Shown here: piece after piece, positions 6,328-58,010 of the stretch
Position numbering within the stretch: position 1 is the first letter of the stretch
Layout: every line of letters begins with the position of its first letter
Source of the DNA: Ascaphus truei
Taxonomy: Eukaryota > Chordata > Amphibia > Anura > Ascaphidae
Length of the DNA: 64,000 bases
Direction: 5' to 3'
Assembly (NCBI GenBank): GCA_036426205.1
Contig: CM071568.1
Location: forward strand, 119,162,245-119,226,244
The notes under the pieces: generated by a model
What the model saw: only the letters and a program-made list of their open reading frames with translations
What the model was told of the DNA's origin: nothing
The model's database searches: none
Made by a program: the position numbers and the translations under genes

Positions 6328-6360
6328 ACAGCACCCAGGATCTCTCAGTTGTTTAAAAAC

Positions 6361-32829: not shown

Positions 32830-32831
32830 TA

Positions 32832-32849
32832 TGGTGTCAGAATTTGGGA
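32832..32849 (+). promoter_or_regulatory. Primer-binding site, tRNA-Leu type (mutated)
   Basis: TGGTGTCAGAATTTGGGAT begins two bases after the LTR. The better-preserved copy reads TGGTGTCAGAAGTGGGA (56847-56863), which matches the 3' end of a leucine tRNA as I recall it. Confidence 0.6.
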
Positions 32850-35070: not shown

Positions 35071-35074
35071 CTGT

Positions 35075-38109: not shown

Positions 38110-38451
38110 TTTTCTTTGCATTTAAAGAAGGAACAATTTTATTTGTAGAGGATATTTTAGGGCAAATGAATAATACAAAAATACAGTAGTTCGCCTCTTC
38201 TTCAAAATTTACAATCTTGTCTTTATTTTCTTCATAATGGCTGCATTGCATTCTGTAGTTCTTTGTAATTGAGGGGGGATTAGGACAAATTACTGACTGT
38301 TAATGTACATTATACACACAGTACAATACGATTTTTGTACACTCCCCCCTTCCTGTAGTGCTGCAGCTCTGAAAAGAAAATTAATGTCACCAGGATTAGT
38401 GCATTAAATGCATTGTGCATTTCACAATATTTGACAATAACTACTGTCTAA
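38110..38451. repeat. Left terminal inverted repeat of the two-gene transposon
   Basis: Runs inward from ATTTAAAGAAGGAACAATTT to TACTGTCTAACT. It contains TACTGTATTTTTGTATTATT (on its reverse strand) and GGCTGCATTGCATTCTGTAG, all found in reverse complement at 51966-52239 and 57934-58010. The outer edge touches a PLE pLTR, so the very terminus is unclear. Confidence 0.7.
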
Positions 38452-38595
38452 CTGTTTTTTTTTCCGGCTGCACTAAATCACTTATTTATATACTGTATAC
38501 AGTATGTGTGGATTTCAGTTTGCACTCTGTATTGTTATGTATTTTTATACTAAACTATATACTGTAAAACTATAACTATATTACTGTACAGTAGG

Positions 38596-38983
38596 TTAGA
38601 CAGCACACATATGTCTAATACAAATGTACTGTACACTGTTCATACTGTACTGTATATAATACTGGAAGGGCTGACATAAAATGGTTAAAATTGTTATTTT
38701 GAGTGCCATACTTACCTGTATTATACTTACTGTACCTGTACTTACCTTATTACAGTACAGTACCTTACTACATTCCGGTGGCACCCCATTACGCTGTAAA
38801 AGAACTGGAAACATGCTAGCAATATCATCAATATAGTTATTGCATCTTTGAAGGGTGAGTATATCCTTCCAGAAACTCATTATTCCTTTTGCCAATTCAT
38901 CCTTTTTGGATGGTTTCACAACTTTTCTGAAATGATCCTTCATCTCATGCCACACCATATCTATAAGATTTAAATCTGGTGAT
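38596..38983 (-). pseudogene. IS630/Tc1-type transposase, exon 5
   Basis: Last exon. The minus-strand acceptor (CCAATTCCAG, AG at 38984-38985) joins in phase to exon 4, giving the junction PPESPDLNLIDMVWHEM. Downstream KDHFRKVVKPSKKDELAKGI and CNNYIDDI match the C-terminus of this transposase group. The third catalytic position, normally E in NPIE, is D (NLID). The usual stop region near 38760 is altered and the frame drifts into non-family sequence before 38596. Confidence 0.7.
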
Positions 38984-39082
38984 CTGGAATTGGAGTGGGA
39001 AAAAAAGGTGAATTAGTTCAAGCGATATAAACAGTGTAAAACAATGAGAAACAGTTACCATACAGTACACTGGAGAACTTAC

Positions 39083-39254
39083 TCCGGTGGCGTCTTAACC
39101 GAGTTGATACCGCTCGCAAGAATATGGGCACTAGAGGAGGTATGTTTAGGGTCATTTTCCTGGAAGAAATGGTGACCAGATGGGAAATCATGCCTAATGT
39201 ATTCAACAATACGGGTGACAATTTTCTTTTGGAAAAATACTTTATCCATGATTC
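39083..39254 (-). pseudogene. IS630/Tc1-type transposase, exon 4
   Basis: 172-nt exon flanked by a CAG acceptor (39255-39257) and a GTAAGT donor (39077-39082). It encodes IMDKVFFQKKIVTRIVEYIR, then FQENDPKHTSSSAH and SGINSVKTPPE. Family members read QDNDPKHTS here, so the second catalytic aspartate is E in this copy. Spacing to the third acidic residue is two residues shorter than the DD34E norm. Confidence 0.75.
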
Positions 39255-39357
39255 CTGGACCAAGAAAAGAAAAATGTAACATTAGGGTACCAAATACTGT
39301 ACACTACAGTTGGACAGTGCCCAAGGCCACTGCATGTGACTTTGTGCTTTAAATTAC

Positions 39358-39602
39358 CCTCAAAGATGATGCATCCTAATCCACGTCAAGAGATCGCACC
39401 CCATACATGCATCTTCACTGGGTTATTGGGATGCAGCTTCAGAGATAGGCGTTCTTTTTTGTGGAATGAAAAAGTGGCAAATCTCTCAAGAGCTACAGTT
39501 GTCTCGCCAGTAAAGATGACATCCTGAAAAGTCTCACCACATTCGATCCATGCCTGGTCCACTCTTTTGATCTTGTTAGTGTCCCTTATCATAGGATATG
39601 CT
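39358..39602 (-). pseudogene. IS630/Tc1-type transposase, exon 3
   Basis: Acceptor CATTTCAG and donor GTAATT are both visible and in phase with the neighbouring exons. The exon encodes AYPMIRDTNKIKRVDQAW, IECGETFQDVIFTGETTVAL and MHVWGAIS, then an in-frame TGA (39384-39386) in place of the arginine codon expected in this group, then RGLGCIIFE. The family reads FTDE at the first catalytic position; here it is FTGE. The TGA looks like CpG decay of CGA. Confidence 0.75.
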
Positions 39603-39829
39603 CTGAAATGACAAGGAATAATTATACAGGTACAGTATAGTAAAACCACACTTTTACCTACTGTACAGTACAAACTACAGTACAGTACTATTGCAATATA
39701 CTGAACTATATTACTACTGTATACTGTACAAACAAAAGACGAGCACACCGCTCACTCAATATATTAGTTATTTTAAATATATCATTAATTGGTCAAAAAT
39801 AGGTGCTACCTATGTACTCAAGTTAATAG

Positions 39830-40392
39830 ATTAACATATAAATGAATGGCTGACAAAAGTCAGTCATTCCAAGAAAGCACATTTATGGTGCACTCCAAAA
39901 TACTTATTTTTATATTTTACAGTGAATACAATAATGTGAAAAAATTGTGAATAGATGATAAAATATCAATAGCAATAGCAATTACTTACTGCTGTGATTC
40001 CAAGCTATTGTTGGTTACAATTGAGTGTAGTGGATTTCCTTTTTCTCCTCTGATTGCAATAATTGAGTGTGTATCAGTTTGATTCTGTCCTATTGCATGG
40101 GCATCTTTGACACTTATGCCTGCTCAAACATATGAGCAGCAAGTATATGTACTGCTTTATTCGTTGTCCATGACATTATTGTATATGGCGAATGATACAA
40201 CATGGCAGCCATTTAATATAGATTAGAGCACCACGTGATATATTTTTAACCAATTTTATTTTTATCACCTATTCACAGTTTTTTCACATCATTGTATTAC
40301 CTGTAAAATATAAAAATAAGTATTTGGCGTGCACCATAAATGTGCTTTCTTTGAATGACTGACTTTTGTCAGGTTATCATTTATATGTTAAT
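39830..40392. mobile_element. Foldback element in transposase intron 2
   Basis: Inverted arms 39830-39965 and 40255-40392: CATATAAATGA, AAAGCACATTTATGGTGCA, TATTTTTATATTTTACAG and their complements. About 290 bp of loop with no gene. The arms resemble small PLE pLTR pairs, but no hammerhead core was found. Confidence 0.65.
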
Positions 40393-40508
40393 TTACTGTA
40401 TAATTTACCATAAAGCATTAACGGGGGGTATTACTACTGTATACTGTAGTTTATTTAGTACTATATGCAATACACAATACTGTACTATTTTTACAGTAAG
40501 ACACTTAC

Positions 40509-40648
40509 TTTACACATCCATATTTCCATTCTAATTTGCATCTCATCTGCCTGATGCTGGTCTCAGATGCTGTTAAATTGTAAGTTTTCTCTAAAGCAGT
40601 CTTGACTCTTGCAGCGCAAAGCTCATCATTATCTTCACTGTTGTTGTC
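40509..40648 (-). pseudogene. IS630/Tc1-type transposase, exon 2 (helix-turn-helix)
   Basis: Minus-strand exon with a GTAAGT donor (40503-40508) and a CAG/AAG-type acceptor. It encodes ARVKTALEKTYNLTASETSI then RQMRCKLEWKYGCVK, matching the second DNA-binding helix pair of Tc1-like proteins (xVRRMRRKLGW). It joins exon 3 in phase (CVK-AYPMIRD). The join to exon 1 is out of phase with the sites I can see, so another exon or a lost site may lie between. The Gypsy at 40746 sits in that intron. Confidence 0.7.
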
Positions 40649-40745
40649 CTTCAGTGTGAAAACAGGAAAACAGAACAATTTGTTACAGAAAGACCTAAAT
40701 GTTCTCTAAAATAATTACAAGTTAATCTTGTATTACCTGAATAAC

Positions 40746-41445
40746 TGTAAGGAATCGGGGAACACGTCCTTTGTGACGTGTTCCCTCCTTACCTGTCATC
40801 AATCAGACCTCCACTCTGGCACCAGCGCGTGCACCCCCCCGCTCTGCGTACAGAGCGCACACGCAGCTCTTCTAGAGTGCCACGGAGATTAGCTCTGCCC
40901 ATCTAGCCCACTTGTCTCCTGCAGCCAATCCTTGCCTCTGTGGAGGCCATGACTCCGCTACACCTCCCTTGCTACTGGTTCCTGTGTGCTACATATACCT
41001 TGCAGTTCCCTTCCTGCTTTGATGAGCATAACGTATTGTAGACTTGATCTCTGCGCCTGTTGTGCCTTACTCCTTGTCTTGTGTTCTTTCCTGCAGTTAG
41101 ATTCAATGTGTACCGACCCGGCTTAACTTCTGAACCCCTCTGGATATTTACCCCGGCTTACCCTCGACTCTGCAGATCTCTCCAACCCAGACCATGGCTA
41201 TACGGACTTCTAGGATTCTGACCTCTCCAACCCCAGACCACTGCTTAATGGACTTTGACTATTCTGACCTCTCTATTCCAAGACCTTGGCAAGCATCAGG
41301 ACTAACCCACTCTCTCCAACCCAGACACGACTACGTTGACAATCCACCTGCCAGGCATGCTTCCGCTGCTGTGGGTGCATGGTTCTATACTTCCCCACCT
41401 CAGTACCGAGGTCCTGACTTGCTCGTGGGAAGCGCAAGGGTTACA
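40746..41445 (+). repeat. 5' LTR of the Gypsy element
   Basis: TGTAAGGAATCGGGG to AAGGGTTACA; an ACACGTCC...GACGTGT hairpin lies just inside the start. The frame at 41194-41547 is LTR sequence only. Confidence 0.9.
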
Positions 41446-41447
41446 GT

Positions 41448-42372
41448 ATGCTCAGCCCAACAAACATGGACCCCCCTGAGGTGGGCCAAGTCCTGTCTTC
41501 TATCTCTGAGCATTTCCAATATCTGGAAAATCATATTGCTTCCCTGACTCAATATCTTGCCACGGTTTCTCTCAACCAATCTCAATGCAGAATTATTAGG
41601 CCTGCTACTCTGTCTGTTTCTTCCCCTGAAGCCTCTCTCTCTCAAGCCACATCTCCCCACTCCCAATCGATATGCGGGAGATCCCCATGGATGCCGAGGT
41701 TTCCTCAACCAATGTGACATACAGTTCGAGATAACCCCTTCCTGCTTCTCTTCTGATAGATCTAAGGTGGCGTAAATTATCGCTTTATTATCCGGAGACG
41801 CATTGGCATAGGCATTCCCCATCTGGGAGCAGAGACCGGAGCTTATTCAAGACTTCCCATGATTCAAGAATTAATTTTAGCATGTCTTTGACACCTCTGG
41901 TCGTAAGATTACTGCTGCTTCTTCTTTGTTTCACATTTCACAGGGTCACAGATCACAAGATACGGCCTGGAATTTTGGACCACCGCAGCAGAGACGGCCT
42001 GGAATGATGAGGCGTTAGCTGCAGATTTCTGGCAAGGTCTCTGAGACATTAAAGAATGAATTAGTTGCTCAAGATAGACCCATGATGCTTGATGATCTTA
42101 TTGCCATGTGTATTAGGGTGGATCAACACCTTCAGGAAAGTCTTGTGCGCCATCACTCACATTCTCTCACACCAACTGTTCTTGTCCCCAGGCTGTCTCC
42201 TCCTACTTTTCCAGCTCTTGTGGCTCCAGAACCAATGCAGTTAGGAAGTCACCAGCTCTCCCCTTCAGTGAAACAACGTCGGAGAACTGGAAGATTATGT
42301 TTTTACTGCGGACTGCCGGGTCACCTGTTGCTTTACTATCCCACGAAGCCAGGAAACGTCAACACCCAATGA
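41448..42372 (+). pseudogene. Gypsy Gag (broken)
   Basis: Starts only a few bases after the LTR. Both ATGs (41448, 41466) are in frame; MDPPEVGQVLSSISEHF is the typical start in this group. After frame breaks in the middle, the C-terminal frame at 42082-42372 has LDDLIAMCIRVDQHLQE and a zinc-knuckle-like CFYCGLPGHLLLYY, in which the last cysteine is Y. Gag forms the intracellular particle. Multiple frame changes around 41720-42080 inactivate it. Confidence 0.8.
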
Positions 42373-42439
42373 GGTATAAGGGGGTCTCATTGGGTACCAT
42401 TTCTTCTTCCCCTCCTATTAAGAGAGGTCTACCAGGGTC

Positions 42440-43020
42440 ATGGTGTCAATCTTCCTTGCGGGTCCTGGCTTCCTAGTTCCTGCCTCTGCCTTCATCGTTT
42501 CCGTGTCTGGGGGAAATTTTGTGGATCAAGATTTCACCACCACACATAAGATTCCTCTAATCAAGAAATCAATACCGGTGGGTTTAGAGGTTATCGACGG
42601 ATTAACTCTCCAGCCAGACTTCATTCCATTAGAGACTCCTACTCTTTCTCTCTCTACGATTGACGGTCACAAGGAAAAGATCTCACTGGATGTTATCCAT
42701 TCACCCTCTGTACTGGAAATTCTGGGCCTTCCTTGGCTCCAACAACACAATCCACTTATAGACTGGACAGACAAGAGACCTATAAAATGGGGTTTTGCCT
42801 CTGAAGTTGCTCCTGTATCCTCGGTACAGCTTACTACTGGCATAGAGACCAGTAATCCTGCCAAACCTACGCTTCCTGAAGTCTATGCAGATTTTATTGA
42901 TGTTTTTGATAAGGTTCGTTCTGAAATTCTTCCCCCTCACAGTCCTTATGATTGTCCCATCGATCTTTTGCCTGGTGCCACCCTTCCTAAGGGTAGATCT
43001 TAGTCTCAGGAAGGGACAAA
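42440..43020 (+). pseudogene. Gypsy protease and start of RT
   Basis: Frame from ALVDSG-like sequence (here SGGNFVDQDF) through IPLIKKSIPVGLEVIDG and LDVIHSPSVLEILGLPWL to the linker EVYADFIDVFDKVRSEILPP and PYDCPIDLLPGATLPKGRS. This is the aspartic protease and RT entry of vertebrate Gypsy elements. The frame stops at 43003, where family members continue. Confidence 0.8.
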
Positions 43021-43731
43021 GGATATGTCTGAATATATTCAGGAGAATTTAAAGAGAGGGTTCATTAGAGCTTCATCCTCCCTAGCTGGGGCTGGGTTCT
43101 TTTTTGTTATGAAGAAAGATGGTTCACTCCGTCCATGCATAGACTATAAGGGTCTTAACAAAATAACCCTGAAGAATCGTTACCCCTTGCCACTCATTTA
43201 AGAATTGTTTGATCATCTACAAGGTTCTTCTATTTTTTCTAAACTTGATCTTCGTGGGGCCTACAATTTCATACGCATTTGACAGGGGGAATTGTCATGC
43301 CTTTCGGGCTCTGTAATGTCCCAGTTGTCTTTCAAGAATTCTTGAATGATATTTTTCGAGATGTCCTCAACATTTTTGTAATTGTCTACCTCGATGATAT
43401 TCTTATTTTTTCTAAATCTATATCAGAACATATCCAGCACACCAAGTTAGTTCTCTCTTGTCTACGTGAGAATCATCTCTATGCCAAGATGGAGAAATGT
43501 ATTTCACAAACATACACTTATTTCTTGGGATACATTATCTCTGATAAAGGCTTCTCCATGGATCCTGATAAACTCAAGGCAGTTGTAGATTGGTCCCAAC
43601 CCACTTCTGTCAAGGCGATTCAGCGGTTTCTTGGCTTCGCCAATTATTATCGTAAGTTTATCCACAATTTTTCCGCCACAGTGGCTCTCATCACCGCCCT
43701 GCCGAAGAAAGATGCGGACACTTCTTCCTGA
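43021..43731 (+). pseudogene. Gypsy reverse transcriptase
   Basis: Blocks [20 protein letters not shown], then [26 protein letters not shown], and after a frame change MPFGLCNVPVVFQEF with the catalytic VIVYLDDILIFS. VDWSQPTSVKAIQRFLGFAN follows, with YYRKFI. Catalytic YLDD is intact, but stops at 43003, 43201 and 43280 break the frame. It copies element RNA into cDNA. Confidence 0.85.
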
Positions 43732-43824
43732 TCTCCTGAAGCATGCCAGGCTTTTGAAACTCTTAAGAAAGCGTTCATCTCTGCTCCCATCTTACACCAT
43801 CCGGACTCTAAACTTCCTTTCACT

Positions 43825-44166
43825 TTGGAAGAAGACGCCTCGGATATTGGAGCAGGAGCTGTACCCTCACAGAGACAGTCTCCCCAGGATAAACTACACC
43901 CCTGCGGGTTTTTCTCAAAAAAATTCTCCTCCGTAGAACAAAACTACGAAGTTGGCAACAGGGAACTTTTGGCCATCAAACTTGCTCTGCAAGAATGGAG
44001 ACACCTCCTGGAGAATACTGAAAATACGATTGAAATCCTCACGAACCATAAAGATCTATTATATATCAAGGGTGCCCATCGCTTCGGCTCCCTTCAGGCT
44101 CGCTGGGCATTGTTCTTTCTCAGATTCAACTATATCAAATCCTACATTCCTGTACTAAGAATCTAA
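43825..44166 (+). pseudogene. Gypsy RNase H
   Basis: Frame with EEDASDIGAGAV, LHPCGFFSKKFSSVEQNY, EVGNRELLAIKLALQEWRHL and HKDLLYIKGAHRFGSLQARW. This is the Gypsy RNase H domain with its D-E-D pattern partly preserved. Confidence 0.85.
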
Positions 44167-44299
44167 AAGCTGATGCCTTATCCCATCAATTCGTCAGTGA
44201 AGACAGATTCAAAGACATTCCTGAGACCATTCTACCCGCCAAATATGTCATCTCGACTAACTCTTTTGATGTACTGGATAAGATATTGGAGACTCAGAC

Positions 44300-45312
44300 A
44301 CTCATCCCCGAGGGTATGGAAGTGCCGGAGGGTTGTTTGTATGCTGCGCCTCAATTTCAGCAGAAGATCCTTTAGTGGGGTCACTCCTCTAAGTCTGCCG
44401 GTCACCCGTGTACAAAGAGAACTTCCAATCTGATCAGACTTACCTTTTGGTGGCCTAATATGTTTAAGGATGTCAAGGAATTCATCAACTCATGTTCCAT
44501 CTGTACTTGAAATAAGTCCGCCCGCAATAAGCCGTCTGGTCTGCTTCGTCCCCAACCCATTCTGGACCGACCATGGACCCACCTCTCAATGGACTTTAGT
44601 GTTGAGCTTCCTGTTTCTTGTGGGATGAATACTATTCTCGTTATTGTTGATACAGTAGGTTTTCCAAACTGGCCCATTTCATTCCTTTCAAGGGTCTTCG
44701 TAATTCTACCACCTTAGCAGATATTAATATCAAAGAAATATTTCCTATTCATGGAGTCCCACTCCATATAGTGTCCGATCGGGGGCACAGTTCGTCTCAA
44801 AATATTCTCGAAACTTTATTTCTGACACACAGGACAACTGGGTGGAATTACTCCCATGGGCCGAATTCACCCATAACTCACTCAGAAATGAGTTTACTCA
44901 AGAATCACCATTTTTCATAAATTACGGGTTCCATCCAGCGTGCCTTCCTATCTCTTCCAATACTTCTGGAGTTCCAGCAGCAGATTCTAGAGTGAACTCG
45001 CTCAAAAATTCTTGGAAGAATATTCAAAAGACTCTACAGGAGGCAGTACTCAGACAAAAGACACAGGTGGATCGCCATCGCCGTGGGGCACCCAAGTTTA
45101 GGCCAGGAGACAAGTGTGGCTTTCATCTAAAAAAACATAAGATTGAAGACACCTACACTGAAACTGGCTCCAAGATTCCTGGGCCCATTCACCATTCTCA
45201 AACAGGTCAATCCTGTGGCATAGCGCTTACAACTGCCTCAATCTATGAGAATCCCGGCAGTCTTCCAAGTCTCATTGTTAAAACCGTTTGTTCAAAGTTC
45301 TCAGTTTCCTGA
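44300..45312 (+). pseudogene. Gypsy integrase (zinc-binding and core)
   Basis: An HHCC segment near 44350-44510 (AGHP, FWWPNMFKDVKEFINS, CSIC) is followed by core pieces HLSMDFSVELPVSCGMNTIL and VSDRG, then LLPWAEFTHNSLRNEF, FFINYGFHP and FRPGDK. The core glutamate region is lost in a deletion near 44790-44840. Several frames are needed to read it. Confidence 0.8.
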
Positions 45313-45389
45313 CATCTCACCTAAACCTCTACCTGTCATCGTACAGGGTCAAGAAGAATTAAAAATTCAATCCATAATTGATTCCAGAT

Positions 45390-45540
45390 AGATTCCAGAG
45401 GAGGTGTTCAATTCCTCGTACATTGGAAAGGCTTTGGACCGGAGGAACGTTCATGGATACCTCTTCGTCAGCTTTATACTCCCGGCTTGCTAAGGCGGTT
45501 CCACGCCATGTTCCCACACAAGCCTTATGGGAATCGTCCT
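45390..45540 (+). pseudogene. Gypsy chromodomain
   Basis: GVQFLVHWKGFGPEERSWIP and LRQLYTPGLLRRFH form a chromodomain. Chromoviruses use it to target integration to marked chromatin. It lies just before the purine-rich AGGTGGGGAGAC that precedes the 3' LTR. Confidence 0.8.
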
Positions 45541-45564
45541 GAGGCGCTCTCAAGGTGGGGAGAC

Positions 45565-46308
45565 TGCAATGAATCAGGGAACACGTCCTTTGCGACGTGT
45601 TCCCTCCTTACCTGTCATCACTCAGACCTTCACTCTGGCACCAGCGCATGTGCGCACCCCCGCTCTGCTTACAGAGCGCGCGTGCATGCGCAGCTCTTCT
45701 AGAGTGCCACTGAGATTAGCTTCGCCCCCTCGGATGCTCCACGCTTCTCTTGCACACAGCATGCACATGTGATGCCGTGCACCACTCCCCAGCTGCGTGG
45801 CACGTGTTCATCTAGCCCACTTGTCTCCTGCAGCCAATCCTTGCCTCCGCGGAGGCCGTGCCTCCACTCCGCTTCCCTTACTACTGGTTCCTGTGTGCTA
45901 CATAAACCCTGCTGTTCCCTTCCTGCTTTTCTGAGTATACCTGTAACTTATTGTAGCCTTGAGCTCCTGCGTATGTTGTGCCTTGCTCGTTGTCTTGTGT
46001 TCCTTCCTGCAGTTTAATTCAAGGTGTACCGACCTTGCTTGACTTCTGAAACCCTCTGGATATTGACCCTGGCTTACCCTCGACTCTGCGGACCTCTCCA
46101 ACCCAGACCATGGCTATACGGACTTCTAGGATTCTGACCTCTCCATTCCAAGACCTTGGCAAGTATCAGGACTAACCCACTCTCTCCAACTCAGACCCGA
46201 CTACGTTGACAATTTGCATGCCAGGCACGCTTCCGCTGCTGTGGGTGTGTGGTTCTATACTTCCCCACCTCAGGTCCTGTCTTACTCGTGGGCAGCGCAA
46301 GCGTTACA
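45565..46308 (+). repeat. 3' LTR of the Gypsy element
   Basis: TGCAATGAATCAGGG to GCGTTACA, directly followed by the target duplication ATAAC. Confidence 0.9.
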
Positions 46309-46836
46309 ATAACAGGCAATAGTTTTTCATATGCAATGCAGCCTGAAAAAGAATGAGAATTTGTGAATGTCCTGTATTGCTCTGAGGGAGGTGTCGATAA
46401 GCAGTTGAATGTCCTTCTGCTATGCTTTGTGAGGGGGGAGGGTGCAACTTTGCCAGTACGAGTGTGCAGGATAATACACTGTAGTTCAAAGACATCATTT
46501 GAACAGTTTTACAATAAAGGTTCACTGCAGTACATACTGTAAATAACATGGGTGTGTGTCTGATATATTTCCATGAGTAGTATGCAAAGCAGACCAAGCC
46601 TAGCAAAAGGCAAAAGTGTGCAGCGCACAGCAATGAGTAGAAGGTAAGTGATTTTAAGAATGTAAAAATTGACAAAATATTAAAAACATGCATCACAAGA
46701 CGTTATTAGAGTAACAGAGGACAAGATTTTTTCTTTAAAATAATTGCTAGGAAAAAAGTACGGTAAAACACACTAAAGCATTTTACCAGTAATAGTGTAA
46801 TTACAGTACATATAGTAAAGAAAACTAAATACTTAC

Positions 46837-46991
46837 TCTGTTTGACTGTGGGACTCCGCTTTACACTTTTTGCCTTACTATAGGCATGATAACTGATTGT
46901 GCTTTTTGCTAAACTGAGGCCAGAAGTATCAAACCAGCGTTGGATCTGTAAAATTCCGTATCCTTTCTTGTACATATCCTGTATTCTCATG
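46837..46991 (-). pseudogene. IS630/Tc1-type transposase, exon 1 candidate
   Basis: Minus-strand exon with GTAAGT donor (46831-46836) and TCTCAG acceptor at 46992. It encodes MRIQDMYKKGYGILQIQRWF, then DTSGLSLAKSTISYHAYSKA, a helix-turn-helix DNA-binding domain of the homeo-like class at the N-terminus of Tc1-type transposases. The acceptor-like site suggests further coding or leader exons upstream, which I could not locate. It is about 6 kb from exon 2 only because a 5.56 kb Gypsy was inserted into the intron. Confidence 0.65.
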
Positions 46992-47177
46992 CTGAGATTC
47001 TTTGAAATCCTTTACTTTTGTATCGCTGCTATTGAAAAAAAAAAATCAAGAATAGAGGAATGTATATTCAATGTGTATTCGATGTATATTCAATGTGTAT
47101 TGAATCAACAAAAGTGATGGTGTGTATACTGTAATGTAATGGACCTCGCTCAACAGGTTTAGTATAGTATACAGTAC

Positions 47178-49950
47178 TGTGACAGTGAAGGGGTTAATCA
47201 AGCCCAATTGGTTACCCCTGATCCGTGTTTTGAGTTCCTAGAGTGTCAGCTCTTGGACCTGACTGTCATATATGCATTGCTGTGACTGTGTACAAATTAT
47301 GCGACAATAAATATTTATTTATGTTTGTTCCTTTCCCAAGGTGCTAGGACCCGGAGATTTCTAGGCGGTAAGTTTCAGGGTGAGTTTGTCGGAGAAAGTC
47401 TTTACAGAATGTGGCTATGTATCGGGGGTCCAGAGTTATAGGATACCCCAAAAACCTATCCGGGAATCAAGTTAGATTCTCGGGTATGTTAAAGCACATT
47501 GCTCCAGTCAAACTCTAATCCTGGGAACGGTATTGCGGCTCACCACCAGAGTTCCTGCTTCAGCACAGATTGGACAGGTAAATGGGACATGAGCGGTTAA
47601 TGTATCCCTGCAACCTACATGGAGTCTCTAGTATAAGGGGGTTTGCCCAGGTAGATGCCCAGCTAAGTTATAAAGCTATATGGGCTAGTATTGTGTGTAA
47701 AACATTAAAGTTAGTTTCTATAGTGTGGCCAGGTAAAAGGTTAATAGGATGAGGAAGTATATTTATCTTATTCTATCCCTGACACCAGAGAGAGAAACTT
47801 ATACAGTTTACACAAAACATCAGACACAGGGAAAAGTATATTTTATTAAAGGTTTACATTAATACGTATATATGCTGTAGCCTGTGAATGAATGGTTGGG
47901 TAAATATGAAAGTCCCCAAGGTTTATATTTTTATTAAAGAAATGTTCAGAGGGGGTCATCCAGTATGGATAAAAATCCATTTGCATGGGAGATAGAGTGG
48001 CTACTCCGTCCTCTAAGCTTCAAAGGCAATCCAGGAAATGGAATTGTTAAACCATTTGTTAGCAAGGAGGGGAAAGGAAGCAATTTCAATAAAGCCATCC
48101 TGGCGTGTTGTCACCTGGCCCAGACTTTCTGGCATTGAGCCTGCGGGGGGCTTGGAATAATAAGTGAGCAAGATGGTGATCTGCGCACATGCCTTCTTAC
48201 TTTTCTGAAGCCATAGGTGCTAGCATTCACAAATCTGGCAAAGTGTGTAATTGGTCAGCGATCAAATTCCCACGCCGTTGGTTGGCGGACAAGCTGTGGG
48301 ACTGCCTTTCCCAAGGTGTATGAGAAAGCTAGTCACCACCCCAGAGGTGTGATTCAATATGTTTCCATGTGTGTTCCAAGAATTCCAAGCTCTGAGTAAG
48401 TCATCTAATTTTCTCAGAAGCTATGTGTCCAGTTACAAGTCTCCAGCAGGAAGAGGCTACTTGAAGGAAAAGCTTCCTGGATTATTTTGCTGTTTGTTTT
48501 GCAACTAGGAAAGGTAGTTGTGTTACCCCAGATTCCCAAAATAAGTGTGTCTTTCTCCTGTTTTTTGTCTAATATTGTGTGTTTGCCTATTTAAGTGAAT
48601 AAATTACAATTTATTTAATCACTCATTTTGCTCAATGAAATGATCCTGGTGTAGCCCTTTTTCCTTATTACTATAAGGGTCTACTGATGCTGTATATACC
48701 TATGGCTCACAAAGATCTGAGCCTCCGCTAACTGGGAGCCTGGGGCAACAATAAGTAACATGGCAGTGCCTCCACTTGCCCAGGATCCCCGCTGTGTGAG
48801 ATTCCCCTGGACAAGAATAACAATAACAATCCACAACTCTGTAACCTTTACTATATACCTGTGGCATGAATACACATATACTGCATATAATATTGAACAG
48901 CATATAAACATATATCATATGTGACAAGTAATATTACATAGAACATATGCACTTCTACAATGGATATAACTGCATATCAGTGGTCCAGAATGCACACCAC
49001 TGTGCAAGTGTCCCTCTCCCACCACCGTGTGCACCCCACACTGTGTCCAATGTACTGGACCAGTTCCTTGGTCACTTAACCCCCAGTGTCCCCAAAGAAA
49101 CCACTACTAAGGCGTAATCCGTGCCTACAGGTACTGGTGTTGGTGCACTTATAAAAATACCTGCCGGGCGCTCCAGCACCCGGTCGCTGATACTTCAAAA
49201 AGTATCCGCAGATCCAGCGTCGTCTCTCGTGAGTAATTCTCCACGGTCAGGGAGGTCTCTCACAAGTCTTGACTCTGCTCTGTAGTCTGATCCCAAACTA
49301 CCGATCACCATGCAGCTCAGGAAGATTCTGTGTCCCTGACTGCCACTATCAATAAGTGAGTAATTCCCTATCTAGGGCTGTTCCCTGCAGTATCACAAGC
49401 TGGTGGTGATGCAGGGCCTGTACTGGGGCCTAGGGGGAATTCCTGGCCTATGCAGTTGGTCACTGACCCCCTGCACTACACACCTCCTCTCCCCTTGCTC
49501 TCCCAGGACTCACTGGCTAGCGTGGTCTCTGCTGCACGGTTCCCTTTCCTGCCTGCCAGCAATCCTCACACACTATTGGCTGCCTGGCCCCCTTTGACCC
49601 TGCTGAGACTCATGGGAATTGTAGTCCCAGCTCATAGCCTCTTCTCTATTGGCCAGCCGTTCGCGCGCTTTTACTGCGCATGTTTGTCCTACCAGGAGCC
49701 TCCCGCTACACATCTACACTGTGCATGCGCAAGGACACAACATGGTGATGCTCTTTACTTGCCTAGCCGCCGCAGAGCCTCCGGAGTACCGGAGCACTCC
49801 CTGCTCGGCCCCCACCTTCCAGACTTGTCGGAGGTCTGCCGCTTGACTCCGGCGTCACCCGCAATAACCCCTTGTAGCGGAGGTAATGAGGGGGGCCAGG
49901 AGAACCCCATTACACTGGTAAAAAGGTGTATTTTGCCTGGTCTTCCATGA
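47178..49950. repeat. Unassigned repeat carrying a solo LTR
   Basis: Starts TGTGACAGTGAAGGGGTTAA after the AT-rich transposon part. It has AATAAA at about 47306 and 48599 and resumes after the solo LTR with TAAAAAGGTGTATTTTGCC. It may be an LTR itself (TG...CA ends), but no target duplication was found and no coding block is present. Confidence 0.4.
48650..49914. mobile_element. Solo LTR, family A, copy 1
   Basis: TGTAGCCC at the start and CATTACA at the end, bracketed by the 4-bp duplication CTGG (48646-48649 and 49915-49918). Shares TTGGTGCACTT, ACCTGCCGGGCGCTCC and GCAGTGCCTCCAC blocks with 62338-63433. The length (1265 bp) and 4-bp duplication fit an endogenous-retrovirus-type LTR. Internal genes are absent. 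Confidence 0.8.
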
Positions 49951-50128
49951 CAACTACGCCCACTTTTAACACCTGCAGCTCGTGTCCATGCCTGCCAAAA
50001 AAATTAAATAGGGACACAATGTATAAAAGATGACACAAATTGCATAGCCTCCCCACACACTGATCTCTATCTGAACTTGCTCTTGTCCAGAAACTGCATT
50101 GTGCATTCTTCCATCTGCATCCATGGAT

Positions 50129-51430
50129 CAACCCCGATTCTACAGACACAGGAATCTGCTGTCTTCTGCCATGCCACCACGCGAAAGTGAAAGGGGGAAG
50201 CTGTTTCCAAGCCAAAGCCAAAACCAAAGCCAAAGGAGAATAAAGAAAATGTTCCGAAGACTCCAAAGTCTAAGAACCCTGGTCCTTATTATGTGAAGAA
50301 GAAAATGGCTAACATATACTCAGATCAAACATTTTGGACGCCCAAAATAATTGACCCGGCACCCACCGAGGATGGCCCATTTTCCACCAATGCTCTGCTG
50401 GGAACCCTCAGCTGCCTGCTCAGCAACCATCCCCTATGATGCCCTCCTGGGAACCCCAGCTCACCTGCTCCAGCACCCATCCCCTACGATGCTATGCTGG
50501 TAACCCCCATCTCACCTACTCCAGCACCCATCCCCTATGATGCTCTGCTGGTAAGCCCCAGCTCATCTGCTCCAGCACCCATCCCCTACGATGCTATGCT
50601 GGTAACCCCCATCTCACCTGCTCCAGCACCCATCCCCTTTGATGCTCTGCTGGTAACCCCCAGCGCACCTGCTCCAGCACCTATCCCCTACGACGCTCTG
50701 CTGGGAACCCCTACTTCACCTGCTCCAGCACTCATCCACGCAGATGTCAACAGCACTCCTCGCACCAGATCCAGCTCATTAGCCCGCATGCTGAATGGTT
50801 TAATTTGTGTCAAAATCACTGACATCTCAACGGTGCAAAAGATTGATCTTCTTTTGGAGACCATGTTCAATATGGATAGGCGTATGGATAGATGGAGAGG
50901 AACATCGCGGGGATCTATTCTTTGCTTGGAGTCCATGCCCCTGTATGTCTGACGCAGGAGGGTGGCCTGGAGACACCTTATTCTACCTTGGAGGTACCGC
51001 AACCCCCTCCTCCATGCACACTCTCAATCCCTGGATTTGACCTTCACGCTTCCAACAACATGCACACAATAGGACCCTCCATGCTCACCCTTTCCACCTG
51101 CAGAATACATGCATGCCCTTCTGGTGGAGGAGATGACAACCCCGGGAAGGCCACGACAAGAGCAAAGCATCCTCCCAAACCACCTACCCTCACCCGCTGC
51201 CAGAAGCTAACACGCTTCAGCACCCAGGATTGTAACACTCCCAGACATCATCTTGAGAGAACTGCCCCAGCGCGTCCGGTAGTAAAACAAGATCAGAAGT
51301 ACTGGTCTAGCCCACAAATATGCCCTGTTCATCTTAAAACACCACATCAGTTTTGAGATGTACAGCGAGAAGACCCACAATGTAAATTATGAAGGAAATA
51401 AATGCAAGAAGGGTCTGCCGGCAAAATTAA
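50129..51430 (+). pseudogene. Second gene of the transposon: proline-rich repeat protein, possible BEN-like end
   Basis: Plus-strand frames starting MDQPRFYRHRNLLSS, then after a frame change a basic, lysine-proline segment (KENKENVPKTPKSKNPGPYY). A 17-residue repeat (SPAPAPIPYDALLVTP, about six copies) follows, then a conserved-looking block VKITDISTVQKIDLLLETMF. After another frame change comes MYSEKTHNVNYEGNKCKKGL, which recalls the NVxG...LP part of BEN domains. I do not recognise the family with certainty. Its outward orientation next to the right terminal repeat, opposite the transposase, suggests an accessory DNA-binding protein. Several frame changes show decay. Confidence 0.4.
50420..50745 (+). 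repeat. Coding minisatellite, 51-bp unit, about 6 copies
   Basis: CCAGCACCCATCCCC recurs at about 50470, 50521, 50572, 50623, 50674 and 50725, exactly 51 bp apart. The period is a multiple of three, so the repeat stays in frame. Confidence 0.9.
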
Positions 51431-51965
51431 GGATACAATCTACGCCAAGAGGACTCTGTCATTACATCGCGTGATTATACCCTGCTGTTTGTAAGTAGGG
51501 CTCTGATTTTTCCATCCCGGACGACCAGCGGTTCTCTGTATTTGTCTATACCATTTTATAGCATAGTTCTTTTTAAATAAATAGTATTTTTAATTGTCAC
51601 TAGGAGTCTCACTGTTTAATGTGATTTGTAGTGTAGGACTGATTTACCCTACAGTGTTGCACTATGATCTGTTTTTGTTTGTTTTTCTCTCATTACATGG
51701 CCTGTCAAGCAAGTGTGCAGATTCCATGAGGAATACAGGACATTCCATTGAATATTTGGCGCCAGGTTTTTTTCTTTTTCATGTAATTTCTGTTTGTACT
51801 AGCAGTAGGTACCAGGCAGCCTAACTTTAATTTTAAGGTATTTGTAACTTGTCACATTGGTGTTTAAACTTTAGCGCTTCTTCACAATTTTTTTTCTTTC
51901 ACATTTGTATACAGTATAGAGTTACAGTATATACTGTACAGTATACAGTTGTTATAATGTATATA

Positions 51966-52239
51966 GTTAGACAGTAGCCATAGTCCAATATTGTGAAATA
52001 CACAATGCCTTTAATACAATAATCCTGGTGACATTTTTTTTTCTTTTCAGAACTGCAGCACTATAGGAAGGGGGCGAGGGGTGGAATGTGCAAACGTATT
52101 GTACAGTTTTCATAATGTACATTAACAGTCAGTAATTTGCCCTAATCCCCCCCTCTCAATGACAAAAGAACTACAGAATGCAATGCAGCCATTACAAAGA
52201 AGATAAAGACAAGATTGTACATTTTAAAGAAGAGGCGAC
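51966..52239. repeat. Right terminal inverted repeat, inner part
   Basis: Reverse complement of about 38180-38451 (AATATTGTGAAATACACAAT, AATGTACATTAACAGTCAGT, CAGAATGCAATGCAGCC). Interrupted at GAGGCGAC by the LTR insertion at 52240. Confidence 0.7.
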
Positions 52240-52728
52240 TGTGAAAGGTTGCACCCATAGGAAACAAACGTCAGGAAGTCAGACAGGGACAAGTAGACAG
52301 ATATTTGTTGGTAAACCAGGACAAGTTTATTCCACTGACAGTTTATGCTTTAGATCAAGATCAAACATAGAAAAAAGATAAAAGGCTAACAGATAGACCT
52401 GGTTTAAAGTACATTGCAGGGTTACTTTAAGCTCACAAGTTTGATTTCCATGTATCAGCTCTTCAAGGAGGCAGGAGCAGCAGAATCTGGGGAGAATAGA
52501 GTTCTGCAAAGCAGCTGCAGTGAGGTACAATCTTCTCCAACTCACTCTGATCTGCATACTGATCCCTCCTTAAATAGCATCAGATACCTGGTTCATTAGG
52601 ACCAAACCAAGTTAAGCCACACAGAGGGGAAACATTTCCAAAACATACACACATAGAAAACATTAGAAAATTGGTATCACATATACAATTTGTTACAGCA
52701 AAAACAAAAGTAATTAGCATTTGCACGG

Positions 52729-53305
52729 TTTAAGAGACGTGCTCAGAGGTATGCAATGGAGACTGTTTTAAGATGAAATTAAAATAAGGCTTTATTGAGC
52801 TTTAAACACAGCAAACATGTAAATCAGCCAACAAAATCCGCTCTACTTTGGAGTATATATACACTTTTGATCCAGCTCTCTAACTGCATGGTTGGCCCAG
52901 CGATTCACCAGCCCATATCATAGAGACATTCATATACTTAGATAGACATAGATAATAGTCTTAAAAGAAAAGTCTTATCTGTTAACTGGTTGCTGTAGGG
53001 GAAGGCTTCTTTGTTCTTCTGGTGTCCACACCCGTCTGTGATAAGGCAATGTCAGGATCCAAGTATAGAAGTATTATCCCCTGTGTCTTGTTGTCAGCTT
53101 GCAGTCTCTTTTGGCAGGCTCAAGACATCTATCTCCTTGTTCAGCCCAATTGTGGACTAAGGAGTCTCACTTCCTGTCTCAGAGGCAGGCTTTTTCTAAC
53201 CCCTGTAATCAGCCAGGTGGTGTTAGTTAATTGCCTACCAGCAGTTAACCACCACACTGCTGGTTTAGAGGCACATTTGTGAACAGGGATAAGTCCCCTG
53301 TTACA
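52729..53305 (-). repeat. 3' LTR of the coiled-coil element
   Basis: About 577 bp, close to the LTR at 56866-57451, with a small internal indel (TTGCGCCTGTTGC in the other copy) and scattered substitutions. Minus-strand start TGTAACAGGGGACTT. Confidence 0.85.
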
Positions 53306-53674
53306 TACTTCCCCTGTTTGTGGGAAGCTCGGGCTGGCCACAGCCAAAGCCCATCCTTCCACTCTCATTCGAGATCTTTCTGTGACTTGAATGAGAGTGG
53401 ATGGAGGAAGAGAACCCTCAGTCCCGCTGGGATTCAAGGCCTTTCTCCAGTTTATTAGTGTCTCCTCCCGAAGGTGCTTGAGATCAGCACTCCTCAGTCC
53501 CTCGAGGAGGACTTTTTCCAAGAATAGTCTTTTTACTGCATGTGCGGTCATGAGATTTCCCTTGCGTCGGGTGCTCCTCTTATTGTAGGCAGACTGTATA
53601 GCAACAGTTGCAGAGTGTTTAAGAATATCCCTTTGAGTTTTTCGCTCTTGAAGCTGTCTCTGCACTTTTCCCAC
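53141..53674 (-). pseudogene. Coiled-coil gag-like protein, C-terminal part
   Basis: Basic, helical segment (VQRQLQERKTQRDILKH, AVKRLFLEKVLLEGLRSADL, HLREETLINWRKAL) running into the 3' LTR. It follows the preceding frame with a small overlap (53619-53674), so a single frame change probably separates them. No family recognised. Confidence 0.5.
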
Positions 53675-54188
53675 TCAATGGAGTTGCTAGTTCAGCTTCT
53701 TTGGGAATGAGTTGCAATTCCACATCCACTTCCAGAGAATGTCCCATCTTTTCAGCTTCATCAGCTAAGGATTCTTCTGGTTTTGATTCTGCACGTATAC
53801 CTTTTTTTGTTGCCTGTTTAGTGGCTGAAGGTTTAGCTAGTGCTTGTTTATGTGGTTCAGACTTTGCAACCTTGTTTTTTAGGCGAGCGGTGCTCCCAGC
53901 TCTCACTGTACCTTTTTTGCTTTGGGTTTTTGTGGCTGTGGGATACTGATGCTTGGTCAGGGTTAATACTTGTCCTTGTAGTACTGTAATCTCATCCGCG
54001 AGAGATCCCTGATTTTTGAGTGCGTCTTGCAAGTCTCTTCTCAGGGAATTTATCTGCGCACTTTGCTTTCTCTGAGCTTGCTTCCACATTTTCATTGTAT
54101 TGTGAAGCCCTGTGAATTTCTTTGCTTGGGCCACAGTTACTTGTCTCAGTTTCTGGACCTTCTTGTGCTCCCTCTTGTGTCGAGTCAC
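53619..54188 (-). pseudogene. Coiled-coil gag-like protein, basic middle part
   Basis: Coiled-coil (KMWKQAQRKQSAQINSLRRD, LQDALKNQGSLADEITVL) followed by a lysine- and alanine-rich stretch (KPSATKQATKKGIRAESKPE), which would bind nucleic acid. About 250 bp of related coiled-coil sequence upstream (54190-54440) is in other frames. Confidence 0.55.
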
Positions 54189-54441
54189 CTTGGCTCTAAG
54201 CTTGGCCTCTAGCGATGCTTTGGTGATACTCAGGGTAGCCTTCAGTTTCTCATGCTGTTTGTGGGGACATACTAGGTAATCAGACGTTCCTGCAGCACTT
54301 TTATTTCTTTTTCAGCCTGCAGATTGTCTTCCTGCAGAGTTTGCTGCTTCTCCTCAACATTCTGGATGTGCGTACGCAGACCTTGCAGCTGGTTCTGCAG
54401 TCGGTGCTCTGCTTCAAACTTTTCCTCTTCCAAAAGTTCAT

Positions 54442-55263
54442 TTATTTCTTTAAGCTCGGCAGCTTTTCATTCTTTTCATTGATGTGGTCTGTCAACTGAG
54501 AATTCTCTTCTTTCAGTCTTAAATTTTCTCTTTTTGCAGTCTCTGTAAGTTTCAGGGCCTCCATGTAGTCCTCCTTCCATTTACGCACATCTGCTTTGGG
54601 AATGACAATTTCCTGGCGTGAGATTTCCTTCTCTAGGTTGAGGATCTGAAGCTCCTTCTGAGAGACTTTGATATCTGTATTAATACTGACAATAGATTCT
54701 TTAGAATTGTCCAGCTTCTCTGCAAGACTGTGTAGTTCCTTTCTGGAGACTTCCAGGTTTGTGTGGCCGCTGTTGATCTCATGCTGTGAGACATCCAGTG
54801 CTGCGCGAAGATTGTGAACATCTTGCTGAAAGATTTTAATCTCTTTCAGTGCCTCCTCATATTTCCGCTTCAGCTTAGCCATCATTTTATCAGATTGGTT
54901 AAGCTTTTCATCCATGGCAGTAATAGTAGCATTTGCAGTATCTAGCTCAGTCTTGAGATTGTCCAATTCTGTCCTGGCCAATGAGTACATCATGAGCACA
55001 TTCTTCTGTAGCTCCACGTTATTTTTCAGTAGCTCTGCGTAACCATCTTTCTTCAGTTTCAATTGTTCCCGGAGCAGATCACAGTCACGTCTGGCAATTT
55101 TCAGGGCATCTTCAGGGCTGGTCAAGGGATCGTCACTCACTGGTTCCGGCTCCACTTCCCTAGGATGGTTGATTGAGGGTTCCTCACTGTTGGCACCGGA
55201 CAGACACTTCTTTGGGTCACCCGACTTCTGCCTTGGGCCATCTGGATATTTGGTCATTCGCAT
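54442..55263 (-). CDS. Coiled-coil gag-like protein, longest open segment (273 codons)
   Basis: A continuous heptad-patterned helix: ARTELDNLKTELDTANATIT, NLRAALDVSQHEINSGHTNL, EVSRKELHSLAEKLDNSKES and similar 25-30-residue units. It starts with an acidic, serine-rich head (EVEPEPVSDDPLTSPEDAL). It is the best-preserved part of the element's single product and matches 34012-34782 of the plus copy, MITE aside. Such helices occur in golgins and in some retroelement Gags. The LTR flanks place it in an element, not a host gene. Confidence 0.65.
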   Translation of the reverse strand: MRMTKYPDGPRQKSGDPKKCLSGANSEEPSINHPREVEPEPVSDDPLTSPEDALKIARRDCDLLREQLKLKKDGYAELLKNNVELQKNVLMMYSLARTELDNLKTELDTANATITAMDEKLNQSDKMMAKLKRKYEEALKEIKIFQQDVHNLRAALDVSQHEINSGHTNLEVSRKELHSLAEKLDNSKESIVSINTDIKVSQKELQILNLEKEISRQEIVIPKADVRKWKEDYMEALKLTETAKRENLRLKEENSQLTDHINEKNEKLPSLKK

Positions 55264-55985
55264 GACGAATCTTCCATTTTCACTAGGCTGCAGGGCATTT
55301 CGTCCCCCTTTTTCTCCGCGGGATCTGCGGACGTGTCTGTTCCTTCCACGGTATGTGAAGAACCGCTTTTCTTTCTCTTTTTTCGCCTTTTTGTTTTGGA
55401 TGACTCTGTCCCCTCAGAGATACTGGGGTCTCCATCTTCATTTGAAATTTTAGCAGCTTCACTGGATCCATCATGCTTTTCTTGCAACTATATTAGCTGA
55501 TGGAAATATTCGGTGATCCGCTGCTCCAGCTCTTTCTCCTGCTGATCATATTCGTCAACATACGGAGCGGTATTTTCGGTTCGTACCGAGTTCAGGCACC
55601 CCCACCATTCTTGGGGTGTTTTGTGGGTGTGACTCGGTTTGGGTTCCCCGTAAGAGATGTCTTACTCCTCATCGGACTGGAAGGGCCACTCTTCCGTGGG
55701 GTAGGGTTCATTACAGGAACGCCGCATCTTCTCCTCCATTTTGGGGCTATAAAGTGTATTTTTCTTCCTGACCTTTGGAGGCTCTATTGCAGCTTTTGCC
55801 AGTATATTTTCTAGAACCCCAGCTTGTGATAGTCCTACCGGTGGGCATATTTTGCTTGAAGAGGTCGAAACTCTCACAGGCATCTCCGTAGACTTTTTCT
55901 TTCCTTTAGTAAGTTTTAAAACATCAGCGGTACTGTACACACATTCTTTCTCATTAGGTATACTGGATGTGCAGTTGCTAAGTAA
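55254..55985 (-). pseudogene. Coiled-coil gag-like protein, N-terminal segments
   Basis: Frames at 55940-55662 (STADVLKLTKGKKKSTEMPV, SSSKICPPVGLSQAG, PTEEWPFQSDEE) and 55487-55254 (KTKRRKKRKKSGSSHTVEG, acidic and basic clusters). Between them DEYDQQEKELEQRITEYFHQ is readable in another frame. Low-complexity and charged; a possible nuclear-localisation-type cluster is KTKRRKKRKK. Confidence 0.5.
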
Positions 55986-56846
55986 AAACTTATATTTGCT
56001 TTACACCATTTACTTGCTAGGAAGGTCCCTCCGCTTCAGCCAAATAATGTGGTTTTCTGCTTGAGTTCAGTAATTTTCAGTCTCATCTTTGGGTATTATG
56101 CCATTCACTCTTCACACTATGGGTGCCTGTTTTACTCCCAAGATACATAGGCAGACTTTACTTGCAGAAAAAAATATATTCCTTGCAGTGGAATTCTTTT
56201 TCCCTCCCAGCAGGGCGACTCAACACTCAGCAATTGGCTTTGGGATTCCTTTTACACAGTTCAGCAATCCCTTTTTCCCCGGTAGGGCAATTTTACACTC
56301 AGCACTTGTTTGCTGAAAATTCCATTGCTTCAGCACAGTCTTGCATCAATTTTCACACTTTTCTGCATATACTCCATTCACAGCTGGTAGTCCTATGCAC
56401 TGTGGCAGCCTTTACTTGCAGAATCAGTACCGCTCGTGGGTCACCATCTGTATTCACTGCTTCAGCGAAACATTTGAAAACAACAAACGCCTATCCCTTT
56501 TTAAGGGCTAACTTACTTCTTGAACCCTGACTATGGCTGGAAGGCAAAACCCCTATTTCATCGACCATATTACACTTAATTATGATAGGCAAGTAAGGTT
56601 TACCTGCTTCAGCAGTCTCTCTCTCCTCTTGGGATTGGGGGAAAGAGTCCATCTGTGGTTTTGTGGCTTTCTTCAGTGCAGTGTAGATTTCCTGCCTGTA
56701 TGTGTATCCCTTTAATTCTGGTCTCTGCTGCATGAGATTCTTTGCTTTGTTGCTCAGTCTGTTTGCAGGAACTATGCAGGCAAAAAGCACAAAAAAATTC
56801 ACATGAAATCTCCGGGGCTCCTTTTAACTTTAAGGGCCACCTCTCG
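55986..56846 (-). other. Leader region of the coiled-coil element
   Basis: Between the primer-binding site and the coiled-coil head. It holds a short open frame (56802-56491, with KNLMQQRPELKGYTYRQEIY) and a diverged tandem duplication of about 80-90 bp near 56160-56320 (TTTTTCCC...GGGCGA / GGGCAATT...CTCAGCA). Confidence 0.45.
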
Positions 56847-56863
56847 TCCCACTTCTGACACCA
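56847..56863 (-). promoter_or_regulatory. Primer-binding site, tRNA-Leu type
   Basis: Minus strand TGGTGTCAGAAGTGGGA, two bases after the LTR end. It is complementary to the 3' end of a vertebrate leucine tRNA (sequence known from memory, not searched). Confidence 0.7.
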
Positions 56864-56865
56864 TA

Positions 56866-57451
56866 TGTAAGAGATGTGTTCAGAGGTATGCAATGGAGAC
56901 TGTTTTAAGGTGAAATTAAAATAAGGTTTTATTGCGCCTGTTGCTTTAAACACAGCAAACATGTAAATCAGCAAACAAAATCCGCTCCACTCTGGAGTAT
57001 ATATACACTTTTGATCAAGCTCTCTAACTGCATGGTTGGCCCAGCGATTCACCAGCCCAAATCATATAGACATTCATATACTTAGATAGACATAGATAAT
57101 AGTCTTAAAGAAAAGTATTATCTATTAGCTGGATTGCTGTAGGGGAAGGCTTCTTTGTTCTCCTGGTGTCCACACCCGTCTGTTATAAGGCAATGTCAGG
57201 ATCCAGGTATAGAAGTATTATCCCCTGTGTCTTGTTATCAGCTTGCAGTCTCTTTTGGCAGGCTCAAGACATCTGTATCCTTGTTCAGCCCAGTTGTGGA
57301 CTAAGGAGTCTCACTTCCTGTCTCAGAGGCAGGCTTTTTCTAACCCCTGTAATCAGCCAGGTGGTGTTAGTTAATTGCCTACCAGCAGTTAACCACCACA
57401 TTGCTGGATTAGAGGCACATTTGTGAACAGGGATAAGTCCCCTGTTATACA
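56866..57451 (-). repeat. 5' LTR of the coiled-coil element
   Basis: Minus-strand LTR ending CATCTCTTACA next to the primer-binding site, with TATATATAC boxes near 57000 and AATAAAACC near 56925. Confidence 0.85.
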
Positions 57452-57933
57452 CGGTTATTACTCTTGCACAATAAGAAGTTTACTGAAAATGTATATCACT
57501 TAATTTAAACACCATAAACTATAACCCATGTAAGGTATTGCAGGAAGGAAACGCCCTTTTCTTTTTACAGTCTGCACAAGCAACATCACATACCCACACC
57601 ACCTTAATATAATTCAGGTAAGGATTTGTCTATATTTATTATACTTGGCCATTAAGAATTAGCCCCCTTCATTCCTGCTAGAACTGCCTGCATGTGTACA
57701 ATACATTTAAACTGTGCAACAAATAAACCACTCCTGCATTCATTTGACTGCCTTCAGGACATCATATTAAAGGTTAGTAAAGTTTAGGGTATAAGAGAGA
57801 AAAGATAGCTGGCCCAGCAAAAAGAAAACAGTAAAGAGAGAAACGTGGTGCACTGCTTGCAAGAAAACAAATATGTATTTACTTTACAAATATGTACATT
57901 TTTACTTTAAAATGTACAAGCAGTCCTGTCACA

Positions 57934-58010
57934 GCAACCTACTGTATTTTTGTATTATTCATTTTTCTTTGATTATCCTCTACAAATAAATTTTTTCCTT
58001 CTTTAAATTC
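57934..58010. repeat. Right terminal inverted repeat, outer part
   Basis: Reverse complement of 38110-38190: CTACTGTATTTTTGTATTAT, ATCCTCTACAAATAAA, TTCCTTCTTTAAAT. It continues the segment interrupted at 52239. Confidence 0.7.

Follow-up and report, generated by a model that had tools for sequence, protein, structure and literature searches.

A dead copy of a probable two-gene Tc1/mariner-type transposon family with a predicted five-exon transposase in the frog Ascaphus truei

Among transposons that manage without a helper, the example usually given is Tc1/mariner: a single short gene suffices, and this self-sufficiency is believed to explain why these elements have spread and why they serve as tools. 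Does a locus of the frog Ascaphus truei, in which a Tc1-type transposase gene and a divergent second gene lie between inverted repeats, hold one element with two genes, or have two repeats merely come to lie side by side? The locus is part of a stretch of 64,000 nucleotides (assembly GCA_036426205.1, contig CM071568.1, forward-strand positions 119,162,245 to 119,226,244; hereafter the window), and a preliminary description made from its letters had proposed a single element with an accessory protein. As detailed below, the window element is in good probability a dead copy of a two-gene Tc1/mariner-type family, consisting of a predicted five-exon transposase, a single-exon accessory protein, which is likely a DNA-binding or complex-assembly partner of the transposase, and long arms ending at TA.

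With respect to the ends of the element, inverted repeats of about 340 bp had been proposed. Such repeats are present: 38191–38453 pairs with 52238–51965 (84.8% identity across 277 columns) and 38112–38189 pairs with 58017–57939 (87%). They do not mark the ends of the element, however, and belong to the inner portion of an arm that is more extended. Homology between copies extends outward past the 340-bp repeat on both sides, in the window up to 60059 on the right, and independent copies share one end, TA|CAGATGCAGCGGCCGTTATTCGAACATTTCAC. The corresponding right terminus of the window copy lies at 60093 (one pattern-scan match, none expected), reads CAGATGTAGCGGCGGTTATTCGAACATTTCAC on the minus strand and is followed by the TA target dinucleotide at 60094–60095, located by the same terminal-motif scan. 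On the right, the arm thus comprises an inner part at 51965–52239, delimited by repeat comparison, and an outer part at 57934–60093; on the left, repeat and genome matching yielded only the inner part of the transposase-side arm (38117–38453). Homology between the window copy and other copies stops at 38117, and the left outer arm, not found in 1–38116 of the window, is missing from this copy. From 38117 to 60093, after subtraction of four insertions, the element spans about 7.3 kb, the left outer arm not included, instead of the roughly 6 kb estimated previously.

The terminal motif was scanned in the window and in loci L001–L034 of the host genome, allowing up to 9 mismatches of 32. Twelve ends were obtained, each following TA; the matches in L033 (8 mismatches) and L019 (9 mismatches) are weak. 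A scan of ten loci, five of them new, at up to 11 mismatches added one more end, which follows TA and carries 2 mismatches. TA accordingly precedes 13 of 13 distinct termini, as judged from the sequence adjoining the termini, and stands at both ends in the case of L023; this agrees with the target duplications that the preliminary description had suggested looking for. In three base shuffles the motif did not occur at 9 mismatches and occurred 0.33 times per shuffle at 11. L023 extends from one end to the other, TA|CAGATG to CATCTG|TA, measures 10,455 bp and encloses both genes; for most other copies both ends were not found. The inverted arms measure 1.3–2.5 kb as they stand. A piggyBac-type TTAA target, suggested by ATTTAAA at both inner repeats, was rejected, because the repeat concerned lies internally and TA is what precedes the actual ends. 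As a side observation, the L023 element (C8:18136905-18147359) contains at its positions 5092–8017 a 2.9-kb stretch within the accessory gene, whose inverted ends of about 874 bp are 98.9% alike; it is probably a later insertion and likely a young element of another family with long terminal inverted repeats.

The assignment of the first gene to a Tc1-type transposase on the minus strand, in at least five exons, held up. Pfam analysis of the translated window pieces gave DDE_3 above its cut-off (E=1.3e-8) and, at E up to 1, DDE_3 as the sole match, without any Harbinger-type DDE. Sleeping Beauty SB100X was the only PDB sequence retrieved at E 1e-3 (E=6.6e-8), and the best database relatives are 46% identical at 97% coverage and 64% identical at 61% coverage. 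Helix-turn-helix (HTH) models gave no match in the window transposase; many of its relatives carry precomputed PF01498 or PF13565. From the 5' side of the gene, the pieces are exon A (46837–47023), exon B with the putative HTH region (40509–40648), exon C (39358–39602), exon D with ..FFQENDPKHT.. (39083–39254) and exon E with SPDLN.. (38596–38983). Most family copies have GT/AG dinucleotides at corresponding positions, which predicts eight splice junctions and hence four introns; the sister family described below shares them, with seven of eight junctions readable in L010 and five of eight in L018. Single copies have lost splice sites, and copies lacking an exon gave no real match there.

The exon majority consensus, whose rows for exons C, D and E included one sister-family piece, keeps the catalytic D, D and E in DD32E spacing. 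Among 83 database relatives the spacing is 32 in 11, 34 in 71 and 35 in one. In a tree of 63 rows the family consensus falls into a Tc1-like clade of 15 rows (support 100/100), mostly vertebrate-named proteins from Ascaphus, Xenopus and fish together with unnamed ones. The label DD32E requires two changes on this tree, since two DD34E rows sit inside the clade, and P0004, which lacks the catalytic E, was counted as DD32E. In the window copy itself the three catalytic positions are G (exon C), E (exon D) and D (exon E), exon B is frameshifted and the start codon position in exon A reads ATA. With these departures from the consensus at the catalytic sites and the start codon, and with its broken frames, the window copy is dead; four insertions and the loss of the left outer arm add to the damage.

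Divergently to the transposase and facing the right end, as had been described, degenerate and frameshifted plus-strand coding sequence extends over 50123–51480 (start approximate), with intact relatives elsewhere in the genome. It contains a 51-bp tandem repeat at 50390–50737, and its C-terminal domain is damaged: 68 of 116 positions align (51229–51432), with two stops. In the sister-family loci L040, L041 and L042 the gene is a single exon with intact frames of 475, 475 and 465 amino acids (aa). The accessory protein combines a K/R-rich N-terminus with an NKEN stretch, a Ser/Pro-rich middle, a coiled-coil-like segment and a helical C-terminal domain. The latter is predicted to be all-helical, at a mean predicted local distance difference test score (pLDDT) of 64 and block means of 63–87 in residues 31–90. 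A database search with the window's own broken accessory protein returned nothing at E 1e-3, and a profile of four other copies, with E values allowed up to 10, retrieved five proteins, every one from Ascaphus truei. A likeness of the C-terminus to BEN domains was seen by eye only, and no BEN model was matched when pieces were scanned against Pfam. The libraries that were searched contain no name for the accessory family. One of the Ascaphus truei proteins, P0124 (LOC142465264), shows several tandem repeats resembling transposase exon B followed by the accessory N-terminus, possibly through exon amplification or as an artefact of the gene model.

Whether the two genes belong together was decided by other copies in the window's own genome assembly (2.82 Gb). 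Searching with the 346-bp left repeat yielded 2481 first-look candidates, a loose count, like the other first-look counts given here, that is not a copy number. Forty of these were scored, all at 82–100% identity (one being the window itself), and two further short matches were found. We inspected 20 fetched stretches covering 21 of the other 39 scored matches. Their common order is inverted arm, transposase exons E-D-C-B-A antisense, a short gap, the accessory gene in sense and an inverted arm. In 11 of the 20 stretches (L009, L013, L014, L015, L016, L017, L021, L023, L024, L026 and L027) portions of the two genes follow this order and are accompanied by at least one arm that is oriented as expected. 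Some of the 11 are partial: L014 and L017 hold little beyond exon A, and L026 has an internal deletion. Both arms lie within the fetched stretch around both genes in L023 and L024, which is what the proposed search with the terminal repeat was meant to find. The distance from exon A to the accessory start is 255–290 bp in eight of the ten copies holding both blocks, in favor of one element with an accessory protein and against two genes mapping to separate repeat families, the refuting outcome considered in the preliminary description; in the other two the gap is interrupted (L009, 2.3 kb; L021, 3.6 kb). In addition, the Ascaphus protein P0121 gave 23,598 first-look candidates for the accessory gene, of which 150 were scored, at identities of up to 98%. 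By hand count 124 of these 150 are free of stops and 26 carry an internal stop, with open frames of up to about 550 aa, the scored matches being the best-scoring copies in which intact ones are over-represented. The host genome likely carries thousands of element copies.

A second family of the same architecture, here called the sister family, was recognized in L010, L018, L040, L041 and L042, where the gap between exon A and the accessory gene is 233–247 bp. Two of these loci, L010 and L018, are among the 20 stretches fetched with the left repeat. Exon A sequence stands antisense next to each of the three intact accessory frames: L040 keeps 57 bp of it before a run of N, L041 has an open exon A and broken exons B–D, and L042 has a duplicated exon A (2809–2979 and 3600–3770) with a stop, open exons B and C, a mere remnant of D and no E. 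The inverted arms of L042 are 95% alike. The terminal motif was not found in L041 and L042 at up to 12 mismatches, and L040 gave, at up to 13 mismatches, a single match without TA. In L018, exons C-B-A together with the start of the accessory gene are duplicated in tandem (1870–5038).

The comparison of both families allowed selection to be estimated from the ratio of nonsynonymous to synonymous substitution rates (dN/dS). For the accessory C-terminal domain, the family consensus against sister copies gave 0.28 (L010) and 0.32 (L018) at a synonymous divergence (dS) of about 1.0–1.1, and the last 114 accessory codons of the intact sister copies compared with L042 gave 0.34 and 0.40. For the transposase, values against L010 and L018 range from 0.12 to 0.45 in a comparison that covers exons A, B, D and E. 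Two decayed pieces of this family whose identity was under the cut-off stand at 0.63 (L017) and 0.76 (L027) on the accessory domain, and decayed transposase pieces of L023 gave 0.49 and 1.25. Copies compared with their own consensus reached 0.83 on the accessory domain, corresponding to near-neutral decay, and 0.34–0.91 on the exons.

With these data the competing explanations can be weighed. That the two genes belong to unrelated repeat families brought together by nesting, the second gene lying outside the transposon, would agree with a window locus full of nested insertions and with those fetched stretches that show one gene or none. Order, orientation and spacing are nevertheless kept in eight of ten copies and, within a similarly narrow range, in five sister copies, and in L023 both genes lie between TA-flanked termini, so that this explanation is scarcely credible. 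An accessory gene captured from the host and carried passively, like Pack-type gene fragments, could account for the restriction of the profile matches to Ascaphus truei and for the annotated Ascaphus protein P0125, in which part of the accessory sequence is joined to an unrelated stretch. We consider this very unlikely, because a passenger would have decayed over a dS near 1, whereas the accessory proteins of the two families are still about 50% identical and their C-terminal domain retains a dN/dS near 0.3. A more serious competitor, if still a rather improbable one, is that the accessory protein serves the element otherwise, for instance as a repressor or anti-silencing factor on the arms. 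Copies that are not autonomous might retain or disseminate the gene of a regulator acting in trans, and the many stop-free frames among the scored matches fit such a role. In both families the gene is packaged together with the transposase, the two sharing a short centre; this agrees just as well with a transposition partner and does not separate the two roles.

Several observations weigh against a two-gene element whose second product assists transposition. In L041 and L042 intact accessory frames stand beside a damaged transposase, broken or without exon E; therefore the two genes were not kept in step, which would also suit the trans-acting regulator just discussed. Among the 20 fetched stretches, four hold the family's accessory gene without its transposase (L010, L011, L012 and L022) and five neither gene of the family (L018, L019, L020, L025 and L028), L010 and L018 also holding a sister-family gene pair. 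A transposase search of the host genome with P0004 gave 21,059 first-look candidates, and accessory sequence stood beside one of the three sister-family matches whose neighbourhood was read, a sample that is weak either way; of the other two neighbourhoods, one held only sequence shared with sister-family loci and one nothing that was recognized. Furthermore, dN/dS in the close pair L040/L041 is 0.66 over the full length and 0.61 over the final 114 codons; compared with L042, the whole accessory protein gives 0.61–0.64. Owing to these values, constraint on the accessory protein is moderate outside the C-terminal domain; it is clear on that domain and modest elsewhere. The C-terminal domain has neither a meaningful Pfam match nor a PDB relative by sequence, and the introns are predictions from genomic sequence.

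For a two-gene element of this kind the following mechanism can be envisaged. Transposition would proceed by cut-and-paste and be driven by the transposase, whose putative HTH region would bind the arms; the roughly 260-bp centre between the genes would act as a two-way promoter. Judged from the layout, the accessory protein would likely be a DNA-binding or complex-assembly partner of the transposase: by analogy to Harbinger elements, it may oligomerise on the long arms or bridge them, or help to import or assemble the transposase. In Harbinger elements a Myb-like protein aids the transposase in this way.

PIF/Harbinger elements also carry two genes, for a transposase and an accessory protein, and are characterized by a DDE_Tnp_4 transposase and a 3-bp target duplication. 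The Ascaphus element resembles them in its combination of a transposase and an accessory gene and differs in transposase type and target site: at the 13 termini found, the TA is joined in the third position by A, C or G, which does not agree with a 3-bp duplication. A Pfam scan of the accessory protein gave no Myb/SANT match, and for a second gene of the Harbinger type no evidence was found. With animal Tc1 elements such as Sleeping Beauty and the Tc1 family it shares the DDE_3 transposase, the TA target and inverted repeats starting with CAG; unlike the typical representatives (one intronless open reading frame (ORF), 1.3–2 kb), it has two genes, predicted introns and a length of about 7 kb. 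The DD32E relatives from Xenopus laevis (LOC121396371), Larimichthys, Polypterus, Cyprinus and unnamed contigs have transposases 40–50% identical to that of the element and form one clade with it. One of them, P0002, consists of a single frame of 337 aa on a contig of 1.9 kb and may thus be a relative free of introns.

According to the portion of PMC7325037 drawn on here, Tc1 elements have terminal inverted repeats of about 30 bp, a single ORF and a length of about 1300 bp, with long repeats in some, such as Minos. The same portion describes the ciliate TBE and Tec elements as multi-ORF, Tec with repeats of about 700 bp and one ORF in the complement, and lists a zinc-finger protein and a site-specific recombinase as their extra proteins. 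The Ascaphus element is like them in joining a Tc1/mariner-type transposase to a further ORF and unlike them in its host. Accessory proteins also occur in algal transposons, as stated in an excerpt of PMC12477816. Ascaphus truei is among the genomes surveyed in PMC12822217, and the sections of that paper used here mention no such element. In the open-access literature we found no report of a two-gene, intron-bearing vertebrate Tc1 element; Repbase and Dfam lay outside this search, and the family may be catalogued there. Taken further, the data may mean that a vertebrate Tc1/mariner lineage turned two-component, with a spliced transposase and an obligatory, hitherto unnamed accessory family (coiled coil plus new helical C-terminal domain) acting on kilobase-long arms, in thousands of copies within one ancient frog lineage and with intact accessory genes persisting. 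We advance this broader proposal tentatively, at a little less than even confidence. A vertebrate family that combines introns and long arms with a conserved second gene would mean that Tc1/mariner elements can also evolve two-component systems, as did Harbinger, En/Spm and the ciliate elements, and the intact accessory genes make the role of the protein directly testable.

The four interruptions of the window copy were defined by other copies running straight across them (L013, L015, L016, L021 and L027). A palindromic insertion resembling a miniature inverted-repeat transposable element occupies 39730–40393 in intron B/C (arms 39827–39963 and 40260–40395) and is absent in L015. Intron A/B holds a plus-strand Gypsy-type long terminal repeat (LTR) retrotransposon at 40747–46309, which is absent in L013 (copy comparison delimits 40746–46307), matches RVT_1 at E=7e-18, has LTRs about 80–87% alike and is flanked by ATAAC on both sides. 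One or more insertions fill 47165–49954 of the central intergenic region and are absent in L013, L015, L016 and L027. The right arm is split by an insertion at 52242–57932, absent in L021 (copy comparison delimits 52240–57933), whose flanks GCGAC and GCAAC agree in four of five bases. An Rfam scan of 37000–61000 gave no match.

Nested inside the right-arm insertion lies an LTR element at 52731–57447 with LTRs 94.5% alike and CACGGTT on both sides. Of its two scanned minus-strand ORFs, the one at 54445–55413 gave weak coiled-coil-type matches only and that at 53619–54308 no match. A second, diverged copy of this LTR element is found on the opposite strand at 32319–35081 of the window. Further upstream, an inverted pair of 1.5 kb (17058–18584 and 18990–20517; 98% identical, 0.4 kb apart) is possibly a recent foldback element or duplication, and the inverted duplicated segments 1–446, 1848–2852 and 7543–9001 are 94–97% identical.

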